Of a stretch of 64,000 nt of DNA, positions 4,964 to 63,170 are shown piece after piece (within the stretch, counting starts at the first letter, position 1; each line of letters starts with the position of its first letter). Source of the DNA: Agelas oroides (taxonomy: Eukaryota; Porifera; Demospongiae; Agelasida; Agelasidae); contig OX422184.1 of the NCBI GenBank assembly GCA_949130485.1, positions 15,350,405 to 15,414,404 on the forward strand, given 5' to 3'. The position numbers and the translations under genes are program-made. Under the pieces are notes generated by a model. It did no database searches. It was not told where the DNA came from and was given only the letters and a program-made list of their open reading frames with translations.

Positions 4964-5889
4964 CTATTTCTTCATTAGTTTTTTCATCAGTACACTTCTG
5001 GCAGCAGCATGAGTCACACAAGTGGCAGCAGACTGAGACAAGGAGGTCACCATATTCATTTACACCACTTGGTTCTTCTCAGATTGCCTCCCATTTCTTA
5101 AATAACAAAAAGACATTGCAATAGGTAACTACAGCTGCGATCTCTCTACATACACCTGTGTAAACATACTTTGAATTTGTCCGAGTACAACTGCAAATCA
5201 AGGCAATCTTTCCCTCTTTCTCGTTCTCCCATGCAGAAGTATCCCTCCTTAGTAATCTTCCAAGATGTGAAGTACAAATGTAAGTACCGTGGATTGGGAA
5301 ATTTTCACTTTATAAATAATTCACGTAGAAAAAAAAAAAACGTGTATGGTGTTAAATTTTGATTTACTCGCACGAGATCAACTTTTATGAGATCAACTCC
5401 CACGTGATCTACTCTCACAAGATCAACTTTTTATGAAATAAACTGCTATGAGATCATCTGCTTATTCATTGATCATCGCTGAGTAATTTTTTGTTGTTGT
5501 TGCGTGTTAAATTTTCAAGGTTGGTCTCGACCATGAAATCATTTTAACATTCCAAATCAAACGGTATAGTTCATTACTATTGTACTACCTATGTATCAGA
5601 TATTGGTTTGTAACTTACCTCAAAGTGAACCCCTCTTGACATTAACTGATTCTCAAGCTGCATGAACATCAAATTACAGAAATGCTTGATTGATTCAGTA
5701 TTTTGTTAATACCACCTTTGTGACTTACTTTCCGACTCTTAAAGTCAATTCTTCTCCACATCCTAATACAGTAAGGTATGTATTTCCACCATTCTGCTGG
5801 AGGTTGTTCATCCTGCTTTTTCACTTCTTCACACGATAAAACAATATTCATGGAGTCATAGTAGGCGTTAACAATAGATGGTTTAGGTT
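4964..5889 (-). CDS. TPCN1: TPC exons: C-terminal cytosolic tail
   Basis: Four small exons continue in phase from the microexon at 9903: 5889-5729 (PKPSIVNAYYDSMN, then WWKYIPYCIRMWRRIDFKSR), 5657-5619 (LENQLMSRGVHFE), 5256-5170 (ITKEGYFCMGERERGKDCLD ending LQLYSDKFK) and 5032-4964. KDCLDLQLYSDKF resembles the SDLSLKMYQEEI segment near the TPC1 C-terminus. In phase 0 the last exon adds 22 residues ending KKLMKK and a TAG at 4966-4964. Another frame stays open to 4890 and encodes a cysteine cluster (CHLCDSCCCQKC), but it does not fit the upstream phase. That these exons belong to this gene rests on phase agreement and the weak tail match. Confidence 0.62.
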
Positions 5890-8800
5890 CTGTGGATAAA
5901 TTTGGAAAGACTGTGATGTATGCAAATTAAGGTGCTGTTGAAAATCCACCGTAGCTATACTATCTGTACTCATCATTGTGAGGCGAGCCTGACTAAGCAG
6001 CACACTGCTGACTTAATATTTTGTCATGGCACACAAACCATGCATAACAGTAGGATTTGTTACTGTCTGCTGTTACATGAGCATTCTAAGCCATGCATAC
6101 TTGATAAGGGCAGCTACTGTGGCTACCCAAGCATGGACTAAGCTTCACGCAAACAAAAATACATGGAGGTGAATCTCTGGTGTTAATTGGCCCTTAACTG
6201 AAGCGACCTCAACCACTGTGCATAATTTGTGCCATCTGTGAGCAGCCTAGCTACCATTATCTGTCAGTGTCATGGTCTGTAGAAGTAAGTTGCCATGCGT
6301 GGTTCAACTTGAGTTGTCTTCAATCTGGGTTGTTGAACTGCACTCTGGCAGTAGCGCTTCATTGCCTTCACCAACTGAACTCAAGTGTTTAAATGCGCTC
6401 ATTTAAAATTTACGGGGAATATGGCCACAAACAAGCAAGCAAGTATATAAGTGAAAATATGTACTATGTTAGGAGTTTGCTTTAACCAGTATATATGGCT
6501 AATGTAAATTTGGTAACTTGACCCCTTAGCTACCTATTGACTGTGGTTTGTGAAATGATAGAAGTGTAAATGCAATAGGGTGTAATTAATTCTTTAACTG
6601 CACACTTGGACTTGATACTAATTTAATAAAGTATTTAGTGCAATGAATAAGAAGGGCTACTTTATGCCATGGTTTGACTAGAAACTTTGTGATACAATAC
6701 AAAAAGATAGGCCTAGTCTTTAATTAATTAAATTGATAGGCAGGATTCAGTATCCAGCCAGTGCGGCTTCATGTTTTGCTACATATTTGCCCATTAGGGT
6801 CATTCCATGTCAAATCAACACAAAAAAATCCTTACCCTCACCGATTTGAACGAAACTTGGTTTTTACACAGTGTCTGTTGAGATATTAACCCACAGTGAA
6901 TTTCAGCATTCTGCAATGTATGGCTTCAGAGTTAGAACCAGACGAAAAATTGATTTTTCGGAAATTTTTAGCTTACCTATTGTTACTAAATCAACCATAA
7001 CTTTGAGTGAGATTAACTTTATGATCTACAATTTACACCACTTGTAGCTCATAAAATTTCCTTTCGTTTGATATAATTAACAACTATACCCCATAAAGTT
7101 CAGGTCAAAGGTCATTATTAGTGCACTTTGACCTTTGCTATCTCAAAAACGAATATTTTAATTCTGATTAATTTTTTTCCAAATGTTGTTTGGGTCCTTC
7201 TCTCCAAGTGGTATTAAAATGGTTTTGGGACTGACATGGGATTGGGAGATATGTGACAGAATGTAATGGCAGTTAGGGGAGATGTATTGTAAAGCATTCC
7301 TATACTTACCTGATGGTGGTTCATTTTGATTGGTATGGTGGTGGATACCTTTGCAAACATGACACGACAAAATATCCATGATTCCATGGTTGGTATGTAA
7401 TGTCCAAGTAGTGGTTGCCATGGTTACTAGGTCAGTTGTCTCTAGTGAGCAGTTCAGTGCTGTTCAACATGTGGAAATGATGAGCATTCTTTTTTTTTGT
7501 TACAACATGCTCAGGCTCTCCCCACAATGTTTGCAAGTAATGCAATAGGGCTGGAAATTTTGAGAGGATAAAATTTAGCTGATTGATAGCTACGGTGATT
7601 TTAAATAAGATTCAGCTTGGTGGATTTGGAGGTAGCTTACTGAGTGATAATGTCATGAACCTTAGGAAAATTGCAATACTGATAGAAAGCTATATCAGAA
7701 GGCAAGCTATATCAGAAGCTATATCAGAAGCTATATCAGAAGGCAAGCACGAACACCGAGTCTGAGTTGAAACTTGCACCGAGTGTGAGTTAAAGCTTGG
7801 CAAAGTATGTAGCACCTGCATGGAAATGGTGCCTGCACTAGCTTCGATGTGAAGTTAATTCTTCTCACATTACTAGAAAGGCTGGCTGTTTGCTTGCTGT
7901 TTATGCTTGAATTCTTTGAGAAGTGGACTTTGTTGTCAACAGCAACCACTCTTGTGAAGTAAGTGCACATGTTCCCACAAGTCTTTCATCATAACTATGT
8001 AGTATACAAAAATGTGATACAGAGGGGGAAGGTCTGGAAGATCTGACCACATGCATGGCAGCAGGTAGACAGAGGGTAGACACACAGTTGGGGAGGAGGG
8101 GGCAGGGAGAGCGGGGGTGAGGATCTCAAGGCCCTTTCCTCTAATGTTCATTGGAAGCTGGAGCATTTGCAAAGCAGGATGAATACTGCTTACCGCTAGG
8201 CATGAAATATTATGGTCAGGCACTACCCTGTGCGTGTTTACCCTCTATCCACCTGATTTCAAAGCACATGACTAACCCTTCGTAATTGTGTATTGCAAGC
8301 AAATAGAAACTTAAGGCAACACAGGCCTGGTATCAAGACTACACCACCACATACACCCATGAAATTGTGACCAATTGAATCACGATGAAATATAAAATTG
8401 ATTTTGTTGGTTTGGTCACACACCTGACATGGTGTTTGAGACATGTCTGGTGTTAGATTATTCCCTGTTCACCTTTCTCCACACAACACTAAACTGCTCA
8501 CTAGAGGAGATAACTGACCTAGTAACCATGGCAACCACCAATTGGACATCACATATCAACCATGGAGTCATGGATATTTTGTCGTGTCATGTTTGCAAAG
8601 GTATCCACCACCATACCAATCAAAATGAACCACCATCAGGTAAGTATAGGAATGCTTTACAATACATCTCCCCTAACTGCCATTACATTCTGTCACATAT
8701 CTCCCAATCCCATGTCAGTCCCAAAACCATTTTAATACCACTTGGAGAGAAGGACCCAAACAACATTTGGAAAAAAATTAATCAGAATTAAAATTTTCGT

Positions 8801-11800: not shown

Positions 11801-14800
11801 ATATTAAAGTTGGATAGAAACCAGGATAAGTGTCTTAGCATCAGGCTTATGTAGCCTCGTTCCCAGGCCTTCCCCATTTTTACCTTCCGTTTGCGTTCAC
11901 AATAATACACGGGAGCAGAAGACCAGTGTTTTTACCTTCCGTTTGTGTTCACAATAATACAAGGGAGCGGAAGACCAGCTGGTCTTCCGCTCCCGTGTAT
12001 TATTGTGAACGCTGGTCTTCCGCTACCATGTATTATTGTGAATGCAAACGGAAGGTAAAAACGGGGGAGGCTGGGAATGAGGCTAAGGCTTATGCTAGTT
12101 TAAACGTCTGTGGAGCAATTTGACACACACTGTACCCCAAATGAGAACATTGTCATGGAAACTGGGGGCAGAGAGGCTTTTGTGATAGGGAGGAGCAAGG
12201 TAAAATTAAAGAAGATGTAAATGTTCTTCAGCACTAAACTGTTGGCATTATGAGATCAAGATTTTAAATGCAATTATGACATTCTTTGTGTAGTAAGCAA
12301 CCATTACATATGACAAGACATGTCCCTCAAAACATGAGACATTTGTGAGAGTATGGCAATGAGACTACTTTGGGAGTACACTTCAACAGATTGCACTGTG
12401 CATGATTCAGTTTGCAAGAGCAGTTTTCTCTGAAAATAGTGTATGTACACTAGAGTTCAGTATTCTTGTTAAAAAGTTGCACATCTTTGGACACAATACA
12501 GACTCTGTGATTTTTCTGGTGTTTTGTTTTGCTGCATGCCTTCCAGCAACTGTTTTGCATGACTTGCTGAGGGACAAGTTTTTAGTATCTTAAATAATGC
12601 AGTCAAGTGAAACCGTACCCCAAGATGCTCACACAAAATTTGTTCTTGTACTCAGATTGTAGTAAACATTTAGGTCATCACATGCAAACTAGAACTTACT
12701 ATAAAAAATCTGCACATGGCTCATGATCATTAGTATAGACTGGTGAAGCTAGACCTGAGCGTGAAAGACTAGGCTAGTAAGTCACACAGCATGTTACTGA
12801 GCTAGCTGTTGCACTCACAAAGGCATGAGAAAAGTACTGAAGCTCTTCAGGTCCGGAAATTATGCTGAATTTAGTTCACAGAGTTACTGTAAGTATAAAA
12901 CTACGACCCGTAAAACTATAGCAAGCTGTAAGTGAAAGTTTACCTCACAAGGGACTTTATACTGAGCTTCTTCCAATTAACATGTCTGGATCCAGTTCCA
13001 TCTTCGATCCGCGCGCGCAATGCGCAAGGAATAAACATTACAAATTGTGATGTCACCACATGGAGTTGGGTGAACTTAGTGAACCCCGCCCGGCCAGGCC
13101 CCTCCCTTCGCTACGCCATTGCTTGCAGGTAGAAAGAGGCCAAGCACGGGCAAGCGTGATTGTCCAGCAGGTCAGCCATCACTATCAGAGGTGTGGCAAA
13201 GGATGCAGAGACTTCCGCCCAGTTCTCGATATTTAGTAATATCGTGATATCATGTGTGATGATATATCATGGGGTGAAAAAAGTGATATCGTGAAGGCCT
13301 AACTGTGTATGGAATGAGGTATAAGCATCAGCTTGCACTTGTCTGTATACACAAAAAGGTACTCACTAAAACTGCTCAAAATGTTGGTGTGAAAGTTCAG
13401 CGACCAGTAGACATTTGTGGTGGTGGTGTTCATGGTGCCACTGTAGTATTCACCAACACCATACCAGGTGTGGTTGTAGTCACTGCATGCAAAGTACATT
13501 TAAAATCCATTCTTATATTTGTAGAGTTCATTTGATTAGCGTTCCCATTCCTAAAACTCTACTGCTATGTCTCCTATTAAGGTGGCACGGTCGTCCCTCG
13601 GTGGAGGTTAACGAAAACATAAACTTGGGTTACAGTCAGGACCAGGGTTACTCCTAGTTTCAGGGTTAGGGTTAGGGTTAGGGCAATCTTGCTTTGCCTA
13701 ATTTTAAAAAGGGTTTTAGTAGCTCATTAATATATTCCTGAACCCAAAATTGCTACTCGATGGACGCATCTACACGCTCACTGTAGGTAGCGTCCCAACC
13801 ACCAATGTACCGTAGTGTCCCGCTAATACGCCCCCTTCCAAAATACGCCCCCCCCCCTCTTTTCCGCCAAAGTTCCTGCACAGGGTAGTTTGACTCGTTA
13901 TAACGCCCCCCCCCGGTGAGCGTCTTCTGGAACATCAAAACTACACGTGCTTACTATACGTTGCAAGTGCGTTCAGTAAGACTATAGTCGTCTCGCTGCC
14001 ACTCTTGTGCAAGAAATACCAGCAGACTCTGGAAATTTCCCGTGGTACATGACCGACAGTGTTGCCGTTCTTGAGGACAGCTACAGCGAAGTCGTCGTGA
14101 ATGTTATTGACCTCGCGTTGAACTGGCAGCTCTTCTCCGATGTAGGGAGACCACGCAGCTTTGTAAACGTGATGTCCGCGAACAGTACTCTCGATCCTGA
14201 AAGTCGTCGCCATAGTTAGTTGATAGGAAAGGCATTGATTTCATAGGGGGGGGGGGGGGCTTATAGTCGAGACTAATTGCATCCTCGAATATAAGCCCCC
14301 CCCCCACCTTAGGCGGGATGTAGTGTACAAAATGGGGGGGCGTATTAACGGGACACTACGGTATCTCAAATCAATCTATGCCAACTTTTGTTCAAAGCTA
14401 CTCTCAAAGTCAGGCTAGACTCATGTTTGTCACTACTCTTGGAATGGACAACTTTGACTGCACCAAAATGAATGCACATTTCGAAAAATTCACAGCTTGT
14501 CTACGGGAGGGGCTCATTCACGAGTGGAAGCAAGCATTACTAGCCCCACCTCTCCCCCTTATGTCGCTAAACAACTCACGGCTCTGTTCCACACACAGCC
14601 ACCGTTCAGCTCCCTTGTCTGTCAGACTGTAGCACAAACGATAAATTGCGTATTCTAGTTAAAGCCCAGCCCAGCACTCGAAGCACCTGGCCACGGTCAC
14701 CAACTAGACTAGGCATACGGCCGCGAGACCTGGGCCTACTCAACAAATACAGTCTTGGCCACTGTGGCCTTTCTGCTGCTTCTAGACACAAGCTTGCTTT

Positions 14801-14860
14801 CACAAGCAGGCATCACGCACTACTCACAGCTACTGACACTACAGCACTCTACTAAACTCC

Positions 14861-14901
<41 letters not shown>

Positions 14902-17900
14902 TCGATCTAAGCTTATTTTCAAAGTTCCGAGCACCACATGAAGGGTGCCGCCAGGCCACATCTTAACTAACTTAATTATAAACTGATTATTGGATGGCAA
15001 TGCCGACAGGAAATGGGGGAAATCCCCAAGTTTACGGACCGTGAACGGTTTGAGACTCCCAAAACGGACTGTGCGCTAAAATTATAACAAGACAAAGAAG
15101 ACTATCAACTTGGATTCCAGGTTTGTTGACCTTGAAAATACAGGGTACCGTGCCACCTTAAGGTGGCACGGTCGTCCCTCGGCGGAGGTTAACGAAAACA
15201 TAAACTTGGGTTACAGTCAGGACCAGGGTTACTCCTAGTTTCAGGGTTAGGGTTTGGTTTAGGGCAATCTTGCTTTGCCTAATTTTAAAAAGGGTTTTAG
15301 TAGCTCATTAATATATTCATTCATTTTGGTGCAGTCAAAGTTGTCCATTCCAAGAGTAGCGACAAACATGAGTCTAGCCTGACTTTGAGAGTAGCTTTGA
15401 ACAAAAGCTGGCATAGATTGATTTGAGATACATTGGTGGTTGGGACGCTACCTACAGTGAGCGTGTAGATGCGTCCATCGAGTGGCAATTTTGGGTTCAT
15501 GCACATTTCGAAAAATTCACAGCTTGTCTACGGGAGGGGCTCATTCACGAGTGGAAGCAAGCATTACTAGCCCCACCTCTCCCCCTTATGTCGCTAAACA
15601 ACTCACGGCTCTGTTCCACACACAGCCACCGTTCAGCTCCCTTGTCTGTCAGACTGTAGCACAAACGATAAATTGCGTATTCTAGTTAAAGCCCAGCCCA
15701 GCACTCGAAGCACCTGGCCACGGTCACCAACTAGACTAGGCATACGGCCGCGAGACCTGGGCCTACTCAACAAATACAGTCTTGGCCACTGTGGCCTTTC
15801 TGCTGCTTCTAGACACAAGCTTGCTTTCACAAGCAGGCATCACGCACTACTCACAGCTACTGACACTACAGCACTCTACTAAACCCTTCTCTTTTGTTTT
15901 GTTTTTTTTTTTTTGTTTTTTTTAAGTCGATCTAAGCTTATCTTCAAAGTTCCGAGCACCACATGAAGGGTGCCGCCAGGCCACATCTTAACTAACTTAA
16001 TTATAAACTGATTATTGGATGGCAATGCCGACAGGAAATGGGGGAAATCCCCAAGTTTACGGACCGTGAACGGTTTGAGACTCCCAAAACGGACTGTGCG
16101 CTAAAATTATAACAAGACAAAGAAGACTATCAACTTGGATTCCAGGTTTGTTGACCTTGAAAATACAGGGTACCGTGCCACCTTAAGGTGGCACGGTCGT
16201 CCCTCGGCGGAGGTTAACGAAAACATAAACTTGGGTTACAGTCAGGACCAGGGTTACTCCTAGTTTCAGGGTTAGGGTTTGGTTTAGGGCAATCTTGCTT
16301 TGCCTAATTTTAAAAAGGGTTTTAGTAGCTCATTAATATATTCATGAACCCAAAATTGCCACTCGATGGACGCATCTACACGCTCACTGTAGGTAGCGTC
16401 CCAACCACCAATGTATCTCAAATCAATCTATGCCAGCTTTTGTTCAAAGCTACTCTCAAAGTCAGGCTAGACTCATGTTTGTCACTACTCTTGGAATAGA
16501 CAACTTTGACTGCACCAAAATGAATGCACATTTCGAAAAATTCACAGCTTGTCTACGGGAGGGGCTCATTCACGAGTGGAAGCAAGCATTACTAGCCCCA
16601 CCTCTCCCCCTTATGTCGCTAAACAACTCACGGCTCTGTTCCACACACAGCCACCGTTCAGCTCCCTTGTCTGTCAGACTGTAGCACAAACGATAAATTG
16701 CGTATTCTAGTTAAAGCCCAGCCCAGCACTCGAAGCACCTGGCCACGGTCACCAACTAGACTAGGCATACGGCCGCGAGACCTGGGCCTACTCAACAAAT
16801 ACAGTCTTGGCCACTGTGGCCTTTCTGCTGCTTCTAGACACAAGCTTGCTTTCACAAGCAGGCATCACGCACTACTCACAGCTACTGACACTACAGCACT
16901 CTACTAAACTCCTTCTCTTTTGTTTTTTTTTTTGTTTTTTTTTTTTTTAAGTCGATCTAAGCTTATCTTCAAAGTTCCGAGCACCACATGAAGGGTGCCG
17001 CCAGGCCACATCTTAACTAACTTAATTATAAACTGATTATTGGATGGCAATGCCGACAGGAAATGGGGGAAATCCCCAAGTTTACGGACCGTGAACGGTT
17101 TGAGACTCCCAAAACGGACTGTGCGCTAAAATTATAACAAGACAAAGAAGACTATCAACTTGGATTCCAGGTTTGTTGACCTTGAAAATACAGGGTACCG
17201 TGCCACCTTAAGGTGGCACGGTCGTCCCTCGGCGGAGGTTAACGAAAACATAAACTTGGGTTACAGTCAGGACCAGGGTTACTCCTAGTTTCAGGGTTAG
17301 GGTTTGGTTTAGGGCAATCTTGCTTTGCCTAATTTTAAAAAGGGTTTTAGTAGCTCATTAATATATTCATGAACCCAAAATTGCCACTCGATGGACGCAT
17401 CTACACGCTCACTGTAGGTAGCGTCCCAACCACCAATGTATCTCAAATCAATCTATGCCAGCTTTTGTTCAAAGCTACTCTCAAAGTCAGGCTAGACTCA
17501 TGTTTGTCACTACTCTTGGAATGGACAACTTTGACTGCACCAAAATGAATGCACATTTCGAAAAATTCACAGCTTGTCTACGGGAGGGGCTCATTCACGA
17601 GTGGAAGCAAGCATTACTAGCCCCACCTCTCCCCCTTATGTCGCTAAACAACTCACGGCTCTGTTCCACACACAGCCACCGTTCAGCTCCCTTGTCTGTC
17701 AGACTGTAGCACAAACGATAAATTGCGTATTCTAGTTAAAGCCCAGCCCAGCACTCGAAGCACCTGGCCACGGTCACCAACTAGACTAGGCATACGGCCG
17801 CGAGACCTGGGCCTACTCAACAAATACAGTCTTGGCCACTGTGGCCTTTCTGCTGCTTCTAGACACAAGCTTGCTTTCACAAGCAGGCATCACGCACTAC

Positions 17901-20900
17901 TCACAGCTACTGACACTACAGCACTCTACTAAACTCCTTCTCTTTTGTTTTTTTTTGTGTTTTTTTGTTTTTTAAGTCGATCTAAGCTTATCTTCAAAGT
18001 TCCGAGCACCACATGAAGGGTGCCGCCAGGCCACATCTTAACTAACTTAATTATAAACTGATTATTGGATGGCAATGCCGACAGGAAATGGGGGAAATCC
18101 CCAAGTTTACGGACCGTGAACGGTTTGAGACTCCCAAAACGGACTGTGCGCTAAAATTATAACAAGACAAAGAAGACTATCAACTTGGATTCCAGGTTTG
18201 TTGACCTTGAAAATACAGGGTACCGTGCCACCTTAAGGTGGCACGGTCGTCCCTCGGCGGAGGTTAACGAAAACATAAACTTGGGTTACAGTCAGGACCA
18301 GGGTTACTCCTAGTTTCAGGGTTAGGGTTTGGTTTAGGGCAATCTTGCTTTGCCTAATTTTAAAAAGGGTTTTAGTAGCTCATTAATATATTCATTCATT
18401 TTGGTGCAGTCAAAGTTGTCCATTCCAAGAGTAGTGACAAACATGAGTCTAGCCTGACTTTGAGAGTAGCTTTGAACAAAAGCTGGCATAGATTGATTTG
18501 AGATACATTGGTGGTTGGGACGCTACCTACAGTGAGCGTGTAGATGCGTCCATCGAGTGGCAATTTTGGGTTCATGCACATTTCGAAAAATTCACAGCTT
18601 GTCTACGGGAGGGGCTCATTCACGAGTGGAAGCAAGCATTACTAGCCCCACCTCTCCCCCTTATGTCGCTAAACAACTCACGGCTCTGTTCCACACACAG
18701 CCACCGTTCAGCTCCCTTGTCTGTCAGACTGTAGCACAAACGATAAATTGCGTATGGGTCATTCCATGTCAAATCAACACAAAAAAATCCTTACCCTCAC
18801 CGATTTGAACGAAACTTAGTTTTTACACAGTGTCTATTGAGATATTAACCCACAGTTAATTTCAGCGTTCTGCAATGTATGGCTTCAGAGTTAGAACCAG
18901 ACGAAAAATTGATTTTTCGGAAATTTTCAGCTTACCTATTGTTACTAAATCAACCATAACTTTGAGTGAGATTAACTTTATGATCTACAATTTACACCAC
19001 TTGTAGCTCATAAAATTTCCTTTCGTTTGATATAATTAACAAGTATATCCCATAACATTCAGGTCAAAGGTCATTATTAGTGCACTTTGACCTTTGCTAT
19101 CTCAAAAACAAATATTTTAATTCTGATTAATTTTTTTCCAAATGTTGTTTGGGTCCTTCTCTCCAAGTGGTATTAAAATGGTTTTGGGACTGACATGGGA
19201 TTGGGAGATATGTGACAGAATGTAATGGCAGTTAGGGGAGATGTATTGTAAAGCATTCCTATACTTACCTGATGGTGGTTCATTTTGATTGGTATGGTGG
19301 TGGATACCTTTGCAAACATGACACGACAAAATATCCATGATTCCATGGTTGATATGTGATGTCCAAGTGGTGGTTGCCATGGTTACTAGGTCAGTTGTCT
19401 CCTCTAGTGAGCAGTTTAGTGTTGTGTGGAGAAGGGTGAACAGCTAGGGAATAATCTAACACCAGACATGTCTCAAACACCGTGTCACCACACCAACAAA
19501 ATCAATTTTATATATATAATATTTCATCATGATTCAATTCGTCACAATTTCATGGGTGTAAGTGGTGGTGTAGTCTTGATACCAGGCCTGTGTTGCCTTA
19601 AGTTTCTATTTGCTTGCAATACACAATTACAAAGGGTAGTCATGTGCTTTGAAATCAGGTTGATAGAGGGTAAACACACACAGGGTAGTGCCCGACCATA
19701 ATATTTCATGCCTAGCGGTGAGCAGTATTCATCCTGCTTTGCAAATGCTCCAGCTTCCAATGAACATTAGAGGAAAGGGCCTCGAGATCTTCACCCCCGC
19801 TCTCCCTGCCCCCTCCCCCCCCCCCAACTTTGTGTCTACCCTCTGTCTACCTGCTGCCATGCATGTGGTCAGATCTTACAGACCTTCCCCCTCTGTATCA
19901 CATTTTTGTATACTACATATAGTTATGATGAAAGACGTGTGGGAACATGTGCACTTACTTCACAAGAGTGGTTGCTGTTGACAACAAAAGTCCACTTCTC
20001 AAAGAATTCAAGCATAAACAGCAAGCAAACAGCCAGCCTTTCTAGTAATGTGAGAACAACTTCACATCACAGCTAGTGCAGGCACCTTTCCATGCAGGTG
20101 CTACGTACTTTGCCAAGCTTTAACTCACACTCGGTGCAAGTTTCAACTCAGACTCGGTATCCGTGTAATTCAGCAAGGATCTTGCCTTCTGATATAGCTT
20201 TCTATCATCAGTATTGCAATTTTCCTAAGGTTCATGACATCACTCAGTAAGCTACCTCCAAATCCACCAAGCTGAATCTTATTTAAAATCACTGTAGCTA
20301 TCAATCAGCTAAATTTTATCCTCTCAAAATTTCCAGCACTATTGCATTACTGAAATGCAAACATTGTGGGGAGAGCCTGAGCATGTTGTAACAAAAAAAA
20401 GAATGCTCATCATTTCCACATGTTGAACAGCACTGAACTGCTCACTAGAGGAGATAACTGACCTAGTAACCATGGCAACCACCACTTGGACATCACATAT
20501 CAACCATGGAATCATGGATATTTTGTCGTGTCATGTTTGCAAAGGTATCCACCACCATACCAATCAAAATGAACCACCATCAGGTAAGTATAGGAATGCT
20601 TTACAATACATCTCCCCTAACTTCCATTACATTCTGTCACATATCTCCCAATCCCATGTCAGTCCCAAAACCATTTTAATACCACTTGGAGAGAAGGACC
20701 CAAACAACATTTGGAAAAAAATTAATCAGAATTAAAATATTCGTTTTTGAGATAGCAAAGGTCAAAGTGCACTAATAATGACCTTTGACCCAAACTTTAT
20801 GGGATATACTTGTTAATTATATCAAACGAAAGGAAATTTTGTGAGTTACAAGTGGTGTAAATTGTAGATTATAAAGTTAATCTCACTCAAAGTTATGGTT

Positions 20901-23900
20901 GATTTAGTAACAATAGGTAAGCTGAAAATTTCCGAAAAATCAATTTTTCGTCTGGTTCTAACTCTGAAGCCATACATTGCAGAATGCTGAAATTCACTGT
21001 GGGTTAATATCTCAATAGACACTGTGTAAGAACCAAGTTTCGTTCAAATCGGTGAGGGTAAGGATTTTTTTGTGTTGATTTGACATGGAATGACCCGTAT
21101 TCTAGTTAAAGCCCAGCCCAGCACTCGAAGCACCTGGCCACGGTCACCAACTAGACTAGGCATACGGCCACGAGACCTGGGCCTACTCAACAAATACAGT
21201 CTTGGCCACTGTGGCCTTTCTGCTGCTTCTAGACACAAGCTTGCTTTCACAAGCAGGCATCACGCACTACTCACAGCTACTGACACTACAGCACTCTACT
21301 AAACCCTTCTCTTTTGTTTTGTTTTTTTTTTGGTGTTTTTTTTAAGTCGATCTAAGCTTATCTTCAAAGTTCCGAGCACCACATGAAGGGTGCCGCCAGG
21401 CCACATCTTAACTAACTTAATTATAAACTGATTATTGGATGGCAATGCCGACAGGAAATGGGGGAAATCCCCAAGTTTACGGACCGTGAACGGTTTGAGA
21501 CTCCCAAAACGGACTGTGCGCTAAAATTATAACAAGACAAAGAAGACTATCAACTTGGATTCCAGGTTTGTTGACCTTGAAAATACAGGGTACCGTGCCA
21601 CCTTAAGGTGGCACAGTCGTCCCTCGGCGGAGGTTAACGAAAACATAAACTTGGGTTACAGTCAGGACCAGGGTTACTCCTAGTTTCAGGGTTAGGGTTT
21701 GGTTTAGGGCAATCTTGCTTTGCCTAATTTTAAAAAGGGTTTTAGTAGCTCATTAATATATTCATGAACCCAAAATTGCCACTCGATGGACGCATCTACA
21801 CGCTCACTGTAGGTAGCGTCCCACCCACCAATGTATCTCAAATCAATCTATGCCAGCTTTTGTTCAAAGCTACTCTCAAAGTCAGGCTAGACTCATGTTT
21901 GTCACTACTCTTGGAATGGACAACTTTGACTGCACCAAAATGAATGCACATTTCGAAAAATTCACAGCTTGTCTACGGGAGGGGCTCATTCACGAGTGGA
22001 AGCAAGCATTACTAGCCCCACCTCTCCCCCTTATGTCGCTAAACAACTCACGGCTCTGTTCCACACACAGCCACCGTTCAGCTCCCTTGTCTGTCAGACT
22101 GTAGCACAAACGATAAATTGCGTATTCTAGTTAAAGCCCAGCCCAGCACTCGAAGCACCTGGCCACGGTCACCAACTAGACTAGGCATACGGCCACGAGA
22201 CCTGGGCCTACTCAACAAATACAGTCTTGGCCACTGTGGCCTTTCTGCTGCTTCTAGACACAAGCTTGCTTTCACAAGCAGGCATCACGCACTACTCACA
22301 GCTACTGACACTACAGCACTCTACTAAACTCCTTCTCTTTTGTTTTTTTTTTTGTTTTTGTTTTTTTTAAGTCGATCTAAGCTTATCTTCAAAGTTCCGA
22401 GCACCACATGAAGGGTGCCGCCAGGCCACATCTTAACTAACTTAATTATAAACTGATTATTGGATGGCAATGCCGACAGGAAATGGGGAAAATCCCCAAT
22501 TTTACGGACCGTGAACGGTTTGAGACTCCCAAAACGGACTGTGCGCTAAAATTTTAACAAGAAAAAGAAGACTATCAACTTGGATTCCAGGTTTGTTGAC
22601 CTTGAAAATACAGGGTACCGTGCCACCTTAAGGTGGCACGGTCGTCCCTCGGCGGAGGTTAACGAAAACATAAGCTTGGGTTACAGTCAGGACCAGGGTT
22701 ACTCCTAGTTTCAGGGTTAGGGTTTGGTTTAGGGCAATCTTGCTTTGCCTAATTTTAAAAAGGGTTTTAGTAGCTCATTAATATATTCATGAACCCAAAA
22801 TTGCCACTCGATGGACGCATCTACACGCTCACTGTAGGTAGCGTCCCAACCACCAATGTATCTCAAATCAATCTATGCCAGCTTTTGTTCAAAGCTACTC
22901 TCAAAGTCAGGCTAGACTCATGTTTGTCACTACTCTTGGAATGGACAACTTTGACTGCACCAAAATGAATGCACATTTCGAAAAATTCACAGCTTGTCTA
23001 CGGGAGGGGCTCATTCACGAGTGGAAGCAAGCATTACTAGCCCCACCTCTCCCCCTTATGTCGCTAAACAACTCACGGCTCTGTTCCACACACAGCCACC
23101 GTTCAGCTCCCTTGTCTGTCAGACTGTAGCACAAACGATAAATTGCGTATTCTAGTTAAAGCCCAGCCCAGCACTCGAAGCACCTGGCCACGGTCACCAA
23201 CTAGACTAGGCATACGGCCGCGAGACCTGGGCCTACTCAACAAATACAGTCTTGGCCACTGTGGCCTTTCTGCTTCTTCTAGACGCAAGCTTGCTTTCAC
23301 AAGCAGACATTACGCACTACTCACAGCTACTGACACTACAGCACTCTACTAAACTCCTTCTTTTTTTATTTTTTAATTTTTTTTAAGTCGATCTAAGCTT
23401 ATTTTCAAAGTTCTGACCACCGCATGAAGGGTGCCGCCAGGCCACATCTTAACTAACTTAATTATAAACTGATTATTGGATGGCAATTCCGACAGGAAAC
23501 GGGGAAAACCCCCAAGTTTACGGACCGTGAACGGTTTGAGACTCTCAAAACGGACTGTGCGCTAAAATTTTAACAAGACAAAGAAGTCTATCAGCTTGGA
23601 TTCCAGGTTTGTTGACCTTAAAAATCCAGGGTACTGTGCCACCTTAAAATGCTGCTATTGATAAGTATAGTGACCACAATCTTTGAACTTGAATTACTAG
23701 CAAGGTCATATTAATTATCACTAAGGAGGTGCATAATTTTCATGGAGCTAGCCAGTCAGCAAGTAGAAGAGACCTTTTCTAACTAAAAGCTCAGTAAGCA
23801 AAAGCCAATGGTTAATGTAGAGGTAATCTATAAATGCAGGCAATGCTGACATTTGTCTGGCTAGGGCAGTTACTATGGCAAAATGCTGTACACATGGTCC

Positions 23901-29900: not shown

Positions 29901-32900
29901 GGGCGATTTCTGGAAATGTGCACATTTATGCACCAAATTATACTTGTTCTCCTAGCTCAATCATTTGCAATTGACATCTCATCCTCAGGAAATTGACTGT
30001 AACAACTGTTTGGGCAAACACATTCAGTCAGAATCACTTTCTAGCTCTTTTTGCACCAGTTTCCTTGCATTGTCAAAATTAGGCATAACAACAGAACCTC
30101 TGCCATGACGGTAATTGTTCCTGGGACCTCCCATAGAATATTCCTCATCCTATTCAGTGAATGCAGCTAAGTGTGCTTCATCTTCACATGCTAGAATGCT
30201 TATGTCATCACTAGTAGTAGCTATAGCTCATAGCAGCTGTTTAAAAGATGCAAAGTGGTGATACTACTGAATGTTCTACAGTTATAGCTAGGCAACTTAC
30301 CCAGAAATACAGCTGCATTCCACATCCCATGTGGATAATCCCCACTTAATGAGCACTTTCTGACATGGGAGTATGCATATGTTTAACCTCAGGATTGTGG
30401 CAACTCAATAATCCCAGTTTTGTCAAAATTTCACATAATTAGAGTACTGAATATTCATAAATTTCACCCTAAGGGCCATTTTCCTATAAAATGGCCCAAA
30501 TATTGGAAGGTGTACTTTTTTAATCCCTTTTCAGGGATACTTTAGGTATAATGAAATGATACTTGCTCATTCACTGTTTCAGCCTTGAAAGTATAGGTGT
30601 GTATGTAGCAGTTAAGTCACTCACTATCAAAACTGTCCGATGTGTGACAAACTTTTTTCTGAGCCAGAAGGCCCGCAGTATGATGTCAAGAGCAAGAAGC
30701 AACAACAAGATCATCTCTATTGGAGCGTGTATCTATAGGTACCAGAGACATAACATTATTATGATGGACACAAATTTAAAAACGTACCATTCACATACTG
30801 ACTATTTAGCTGAAAACATTGGAATCATTCCATGTCAAATCAACACAAAAAAATCTTTACCCTCACCAATTTGAACGAAACTTGTTTTTGATACAGTGTC
30901 TGTTGATATATTAACCCACAGTGAGTTTCAGCATTCTGTAATGTATGGCTTCAGAGTTAGAAAATGCTTACCTGCAGTTACTAAAACTTTACGTCATCAT
31001 TAGTGCACTTTGACCTTTGCTATCTCAAAATGGGTATTTTAATTCTGATTAATTTTTTTCCAAATATTGTTTGGGTCCTCTCCAAGTGGTGTAAAAATTG
31101 TTTTAGGACTGCCATGGGATTGGGAGATACGTGACAGAATATGATGGCAGTTAGGGGATATGTACTGTAAAGCAATCCTATACTTACCGGATGGTGGTTC
31201 ATTTTGATTAGTATGGTAGGAGATACCTTTGTAAACATGAAGCGACAAAATATCCATGATTCCATGGTTGGTATGTGGTAGTTACCATGGTTACTAGGTC
31301 AGTTATCTCCTCTAGTAAGCAGTTCAGTGCTGTTCAACATGTAGAAATGATGACAATTCTTTTTTGTTACAACTTGCTCAGGCTCTCCCTATCATAATTG
31401 CATTTCTCTAATACAATAGGGCTGGAAATTTTGAGAGGATAAAATTTAGCTGATTGATAGCTACAGCTAATGATTTAAAATATGGTTCAGCTTGGTGGAT
31501 TTGTAGGTAGCTTACTGAGTGATAATGTCATAAACCTTAGGAAAATTGCAATCATTGCTGCAGGGGTTCTTACTGGTGATAGAAAGCTATATCAAAAGGC
31601 AAGGATGCTTGCTGAATTGCGTGGACACTGAGTTGAAAGTTGCAACGAGTGTGAGTTAAAGCTTGGCAAAGTATGTAGCAACTGCAAAGAAAAGGAACCA
31701 GCAGTAGCTGTGATATGAAGTTGTTCCCTCATTTCTAGAAAGGCTGGCTCCTTGCTTACTGTTTATGCTTGAATTCTTTGAGAAGTGGACTTTGTTGTCA
31801 GCAGCAACCACTCTTGTGAAGTGCACATGTTCCCAGGCCTTTGTGAACACAAGTCTTTGATCATTTAGTATACAAAAAGAGGGGGAAGGTCTGGAAGATC
31901 TGACCACACACATGGTAGCAGGTAGACAGAGGGTAGACACACAGTCAGGGGGGTAGGGAGAGCAGGGGTGAGGATCTTGAGGCCCTTTCCTCTAATGTTC
32001 GTTGGAAGCTGGAGCATTTGCAAAGCAGGATGAATACTGCTTACTGTTAGGCATGAAATATTATGGTAGGGCACTACCCTGTGCGTGTTTACCCTCTATC
32101 CACCTGATTTCAAAGCACACGACTACCCTTCATATTTGCAAGTAACTAGAAAGTTAAGGCAACACAGGCCTGGTGTCAAGACTACACTGCCACCTTACAC
32201 CCATGAAAATGTGATGAATAGAATCATGATGAAATATGATTTTGGTGTTTGAGACATGTCTGGTGTTGGATTCACCAGAGGAGATAACTGCATGACCTAG
32301 TAATCATGGCAACTACCACTTGGACATCACATACCAACCATGGAATCGTGGATATTTTGTCGCGTCATGTTTACAAAGGTATCCACTACCATACTAATCA
32401 AAATTAACCGCCATCAGGATTGCTATATTCTCCACTTCACCCTTGTTTCTATGGTAACAGGTGGGTATTATTTTCCATATACTGACAGGAAGTTGTAGAT
32501 TCTGTAGATTCTGTTCCATATACCACAGGAAGTTGTAAAATGATGTTACCTATAAGCAACCTTGTTTACAGTGTAAACTACTTTACATTTACTAATAACA
32601 TACCTTGTTTACAGTGAAAACTATTACTAATAACAACAAGGACCAATCAGAGTGGAGAATATAACAGATAAACCACAGTAGACAGAGATTTATGGCCATA
32701 AACAACCCTCGCCCTCCGGCTCGGGTGGTTTATGAACCATAAATCCCTGTCTACTGTGGTTTATCTATTACTTACAGTACATATCCCCTAACTGCCATTA
32801 CATTCTGTCACGTATCTCCCAATCCCATGGCAGTCTCACAACCATTGTACACCACTTGGAGAGAAGAACCCAAACAACATTTTGAAAAAAATTAATCAGA

Positions 32901-52971: not shown

Positions 52972-63170
<10,199 letters not shown>

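Follow-up and report, generated by a model that had tools for sequence, protein, structure and literature searches.

An in-phase, head-to-tail array of a putative Kolobok-type element in a TPC intron of the sponge Agelas oroides

How does a transposon-like element come to lie seven times in a row, its repeat phase set by its own ends, inside an intron of a TPC gene? The question is raised by a stretch of 64,000 nucleotides, hereafter the window, at C2:15350405-15414404 (C2 is contig OX422184.1) of the 259-Mb genome of Agelas oroides. The existence, placement, orientation and phase of the array in the assembly are confirmed. It occupies 13577-23647 (array coordinates are window positions) and consists of seven non-coding units of an element that we call X, all head-to-tail on the forward strand. 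One TTAA stands at each of the six internal junctions and TTAA also lies at both outer borders, the last ending at 23647. The terminal inverted repeats (TIRs) are of 11 bp, GGTGGCACGGT and ACCGTGCCACC, with one mismatch in the left end of unit 6 and in the right end of unit 7. An earlier note on this DNA had described seven units of 1021 bp each with 11-bp TIRs and shared TTAAs; all of this stands except the uniform length, which is true of four units. Units 2 (15158-16182), 3 (16183-17207), 4 (17208-18232) and 6 (21603-22627) have the canonical 1021 bp, or 1025 with one TTAA. Unit 1 (13577-15157) measures 1581 bp, unit 5 (18233-21602) 3370 bp, and unit 7 (22628-23647) 1020 bp including both its TTAAs.

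The same note had held that the repeat phase coincides with transposon borders and that this is no ordinary satellite. The genome agrees: neither a phase unrelated to the transposon ends nor single copies without TTAA bounds were found. Allowing one mismatch, the genome holds 433 left ends of X, against none for a reversed-pattern control. Each of the 12 single copies inspected is bordered by TTAA left and right, in flanking DNA that differs from copy to copy, so that the feared borders unrelated to TTAA were not seen. The first 100 of these left ends, which cover C1 and part of C2, fall into 60 loci; 44 of these list a single X and 16 more than one. Similarity scoring covered the best 40 of 2062 X candidates. 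Full-length copies were compared in a set of 49, taken from fetched loci outside the window and found by similarity to unit 3; the set is biased to unit 3 likeness and inverted copies could not enter it. Within it, 48 copies differ from their majority sequence at 0-8 of about 1024 positions and the remaining one at 45. Judged by these sequences, and for copies found in this way, X is a young transposon family. A pattern search for another element with the TIR of X and a different interior gave four matches; the three that were read proved to be X copies, and the fourth lies at C4:4069664. X also carries telomere-like TTAGGG runs at positions of about 85-105, perfect in unit 1 (GGGTTAGGGTTAGGGTTAGGG) and reading GGGTTTGGTTTAGGG in the remaining units.

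Piggybac and Kolobok had been named as candidate superfamilies from the TTAA duplication, and the ends of X favor the second. X duplicates TTAA (all 12 single copies, and the outer borders of the array), and its termini, GG...CC, agree with the 5'-RR...YY-3' form given for Kolobok in PMC9587614. The terminal motif CC[C/T]T of piggyBac, as it appears in PMC2872659, is absent from ends that read GGTGGCACGGT. A genome search with the PF20700 (Mutator-like transposase) profile returned 44 matches, and an intact Kolobok of 5102 bp lies at C3:17119657-17124758 (L057-L059), bounded as TTAA-GGTGGCGGGTA and TACCCGCCACC-TTAA (TTAA-GGTGGC). Its single frame of 887 residues joins a PF20700 domain (E 2.2e-79) to a YqaJ nuclease domain, PF09588 (E 5e-15). 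A relative on C8 is 98.5% identical over 398 bp near the right end, the terminal 8 bp being without match. The autonomous relative with a transposase for which the earlier note had suggested a search may be this intact Kolobok, which has only TTAAGGTGGC in common with X. Its transposase is a candidate enzyme for the mobilization of X.

Two inverted segments and two nested elements, which the earlier note does not have, make individual units of the array recognizable. In unit 2, a segment of 178 bp (15321-15498, minus strand; unit positions 164-341) is inverted between breakpoints with a 3-bp inverted match. Unit 5 carries the same inversion with identical breakpoints (18396-18573, minus strand), and among the matches listed (loci L009-L049) it occurs only at these two loci of the window. 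Unit 1 is interrupted by a 552-bp TIR element of a repeated family (13810-14361, plus strand) with ends CCGTAGTGTCCCG and a TA duplication at 13808-13809 and 14362-14363; 19 further near-complete copies, 89-99% identical, were found among the 40 candidates scored. Unit 5 holds a 2341-bp element (18756-21096), foldback-like, with a GTAT duplication, ends GGGTCATTCC...GGAATGACCC and inverted arms of 682 nt at 97% identity. Because open reading frame stretches resembling those of this last element recur near window positions 7158-8791 and 31020-31298, relatives of it may lie elsewhere in the window.

These features bear on whether the array could be an assembly artefact. In its favor, C109, with a comparable run, is a 16.6-kb contig that starts inside a unit. 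Against it, nested elements and inverted segments, two of each, and lineage markers tell the units in the window apart, and X-X runs, or runs in which X alternates with a second module, Y, also stand on the large contigs C1, C10 and C22. We therefore give this explanation very little credence.

The ancestry of the units was read at diagnostic sites. An allele counted as old if both of two old copies, C1:5895668 in L023 and L056, carry it and the young majority does not. Of such alleles unit 7 shows none at the 17 sites up to position 618 and all at the 12 sites from 648 onwards, and units 1-6 have none of 17 in the left part and 0-1 of 12 in the right. Because its alleles switch between 618 and 648, unit 7 is a recombinant between a young X and an old resident, young to the left and of the old subfamily to the right. 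Units 1-5 have 886G, 897G and 951A in common, present in none of the 49 other copies. Unit 6 has none of these three and bears 960A, seen in four of the 49, so that its right end is of another lineage; its T-tract, in contrast, matches units 2-5 in type. Units 2 and 5 have in common, beyond the inversion, a deletion of one base and the T-tract variant TTTTGTTTTG. By these markers, three lineages or more have contributed to the units. Derivation of the whole array from a dimer A-B gave way to this three-lineage reading, and a single old X split by the array is ruled out by the left part of unit 1, with none of the 17 old alleles.

Near-identity had suggested recent amplification or gene conversion, which fits units 1-5; the right end of unit 6 and the right half of unit 7 are of other lineages. 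The markers also bear on the simplest form of stacking, seven independent insertions, one per unit and with no exchange between them. Independent adjacent insertion does happen, as head-to-head and tail-to-tail junctions elsewhere in the genome indicate. For units 1-5 the scheme is nevertheless refuted by their private markers unless one donor locus supplied all of them, and the inversion common to units 2 and 5 and the recombinant units 6 and 7 also speak against it; we regard it as scarcely credible.

The junctions themselves are instructive. An X-X junction, GTGCCACC-TTAA-GGTGGCAC, forms a perfect 20-bp palindrome, found exactly at 31 places, 30 of which could be typed. Within runs, all typed junctions are head-to-tail (six in the window, five on C109 and three on C10); among 16 isolated junctions, 12 are head-to-tail, three tail-to-tail and one head-to-head. 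Because of their orientation, the last four cannot result from tandem duplication. At C1:5888496-5896690, a one-direction run of X and Y lies between X copies of the opposite direction, with TTAA at each side. Other arrays, which the earlier note had proposed to look for, do exist as X-only runs on C109 and C10. The C10 run is of the old subfamily, so X-only runs formed more than once; variants specific to the locus recur in three of its four complete units read, and a partial unit on the outside is of another lineage. In six neighboring X-X pairs outside the window, the copies differ at seven positions on C14, at eight at C1:6253626 and at 0-2 in four pairs of C109. That new copies repeatedly entered the TTAA of an earlier one, one of two origins that the earlier note had considered, is thus supported by the three or more lineages, by head-to-head and tail-to-tail junctions and by junctions between differing copies. 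We note that the junction core CTTAAGGTGGC is one base off part of the I-PpoI site, CTTAAGGTAGC, a possible link to a nuclease.

Outside the window, X also flanks Y, a module of 681 bp plus TTAA that lies between X copies and is oriented as they are. Allowing one mismatch, we found 205 left ends of Y, and we scored the best 40 of 415 Y candidates. Composites take the forms X-Y-X, X(YX)n, X-Y-Y-X and solo Y, and TTAA flanks both outer ends in all five composites with both ends in hand. On this evidence X also serves as the terminal direct repeat in a family of X-Y-X composites, with an architecture like that of KolobokP. One example, C1:1704542-1722817, is an X(YX)n multimer with twelve X left ends and eleven Y; its spacing of 1705 occurs once and is followed by 1657 ten times, which points to amplification of a shortened unit. 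At a young Y-Y junction (L022) there is exactly one TTAA, as expected if an X were excised precisely.

Y was also followed apart from X. Nine exact Y right ends continue with a base that fits neither X nor Y, and six were read. L052 and L055 are young X-Y with no X to the right; the other four are older copies of Y (about 89-91%), separate from young X. L054 lies between TTAAs, L053 is truncated on the left, L050 belongs to an old X-Y-Y-Y run, and L051 lies within an X, where it occupies an internal TTAA and has an altered TTAA on its left. Capture of single-copy host DNA is consequently not the whole account of Y, since older copies stand apart from young X, and Y is not a TIR transposon, its ends not being inverted repeats. 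Its right end, too, has telomere-like runs. Composites with a coding interior were sought without success: among the first 100 X left ends, the widest spacing of same-direction neighbors within 4 kb is 3370, and this is unit 5 itself; none was found in C1:7907801-7915800; and an insert at L049 turned out to be another element.

It is at these composites that a circular or concatenated X intermediate, amplified and then integrated in a single event, whether at a TTAA or through homologous recombination with an old resident X, finds support. Across Y, 13 pairs of X neighbors in 10 loci have 15 locus-specific variants in common and eight differences in total (the old copy C1:5895668, T-tract columns 716-764 and gaps being left out), and none of 20,000 permutations reached either value. 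Circles with one repeat would give such sharing, and circles have been proposed for KolobokP by Kojima and Bao (PMC9587614). The hybrid unit 7 would also be expected from recombination into a resident X. Amplification, the other origin in the earlier note, did occur, as the markers of units 1-5 and the inversion of units 2 and 5 attest; a single integration fails on the lineage order. The right end of unit 6 and the right half of unit 7 represent two further lineages, the old X was not split by the array, since the left part of unit 1 lacks old alleles, and two of the 13 X-Y-X pairs share no variants and differ by three. We therefore hold this explanation to be improbable, although less so than an artefact. 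Because neighbors share locus-specific variants, copying or conversion in place gave rise to the X repeats in most of these multimers.

The reading that we prefer, and consider probable as a whole, combines insertion at terminal TTAAs, unequal exchange or conversion, mobilization by a resident Kolobok transposase and composites as in KolobokP. X would be a non-autonomous Kolobok-type transposon whose TTAA targets include the terminal TTAAs of resident copies. An old X would already have lain in the TPC intron when younger copies entered terminal TTAAs in the same direction, stacking up head to tail with a single TTAA at every junction. Exchange among the units, by unequal crossing-over or gene conversion, would then have produced the hybrids, units 6 and 7, and the same exchange would have multiplied the young lineage, units 1-5. 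Unit 2 may have been copied into unit 5, or the reverse, transferring the inversion, and finally two unrelated elements would have inserted into units 1 and 5. Genome-wide, X(YX)n multimers would arise or be homogenized in place, as in KolobokP. Borders, targets, markers, junction types and composites are read directly; the order of insertion, the part of crossing-over as against conversion and the mobilization of X by a resident Kolobok transposase we infer.

Several observations weigh against this account. The C3 Kolobok and X have no significant internal similarity. The young-array marker 897G is present in unit 7, and the six private variants in the first 254 bp of unit 1 have no counterpart in any copy examined, whether old or young. 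In the pair with eight differences, all changes lie in one copy and are C-to-T or G-to-A, as decay in an older sister could have produced. If the genome has about 1.0 million TTAA sites, a figure extrapolated from the window, the number of times that X should lie next to X by chance is 0.19 for 433 insertions among themselves; with 2062 candidates as targets it rises to 1.79, and four events are then not significant (P 0.11). Self-targeting is suggested, and a preference of X for its own ends is unproven. It is tempting to speculate further that X ends prefer their own ends, that the palindromic junction serves both as insertion site and as recombination hot spot, and that X in this way self-assembles composites and in-phase arrays; we offer this as a tentative idea, itself rather unlikely.

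How far do known systems resemble X? KolobokP (Kojima and Bao 2022, PMC9587614) has terminal direct repeats with their own short TIRs, 5'-RR and YY-3', and occurs as solo repeats, repeat-internal-repeat monomers, repeat-sharing multimers and solo internals; where two internals adjoin, the flanking 4 bp are present just once. X-Y-X and its multimers likewise enclose an internal region between long direct repeats with their own TIRs, and multimers, solo repeats, solo internals and internal-internal junctions with a single 4 bp are also found here. In contrast, targets are strictly TTAA in the X copies inspected, whereas KolobokP has no strong preference and duplications of 3-5 bp; the X repeat is of 1021 bp, as against about 450 or 660 bp; the 681-bp interior, Y, lacks a transposase and is too short for the transposase and His-Me finger nuclease that KolobokP encodes; and here X-only arrays are present and no coding composite was found. 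The CMITE elements of corals (Wang et al. 2010, PMC2872659) are also full-size, non-coding TTAA elements in tandem arrays, for which their authors favor replication slippage, but are of about 100 bp with piggyBac-like CC[C/T]T ends. The C3 element resembles KolobokE (PMC9587614) in its TTAA, its GGTGGCGGGTA ends and a PF20700 transposase followed by a YqaJ-type nuclease in one frame; unlike X, this element of KolobokE design has no long direct repeats that we could see, and TTAAGGTGGC is all they have in common. The T2-MITE of Xenopus (PMC6004289) comprises non-autonomous TTAA elements placed in Kolobok by target and RR ends, yet its tandem repeat Xstir is an internal segment, whereas in X the whole element repeats. 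Two oyster satellites carry a Kolobok label (PMC8268682). In the open-licence papers searched, we found neither repeat-only arrays nor a Kolobok composite that is strict for TTAA and has direct repeats of 1 kb. Tandem TTAA elements and KolobokP composites are thus known, and the TTAA-strict composite with 1-kb repeats is of a rarely described kind.

The array was placed in its host gene, that of a two-pore channel (TPC), by matches on the minus strand. At 33684-33412 lies a TPC1-like exon, which matches chain 6c96_A with E 1.4e-9. Pieces of human TPC1 served as bait for the remaining exon matches: those of the first domain at 29579-28765, a weak match at 24262-24191 (E 0.020) and the pore region of the second domain at 10427-10076 (E 1e-6). 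Since TPC exon matches stand on both sides, the array is intronic, as the earlier note had it. Residues 127-166 of the bait behind the last two of these matches found no placement, so a small exon may lie inside the interval that bears the array. Elsewhere in the window, an 88-bp tandem repeat of seven copies with 98% matches spans 60383-60995, and a search with the open reading frame at 5672-5926 gave no useful match.

Taken together, the array is a readable stratigraphy of how a transposon may become a tandem repeat through its own terminal target and then through exchange between units, possibly a satellite in the making. A TTAA-strict composite also bears on the design of KolobokP, namely on whether that design depends on a homing endonuclease or is a consequence of mobile terminal repeats. 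If self-targeting is true, the composite Kolobok architecture would have arisen outside KolobokP, driven by self-targeting at TTAA.

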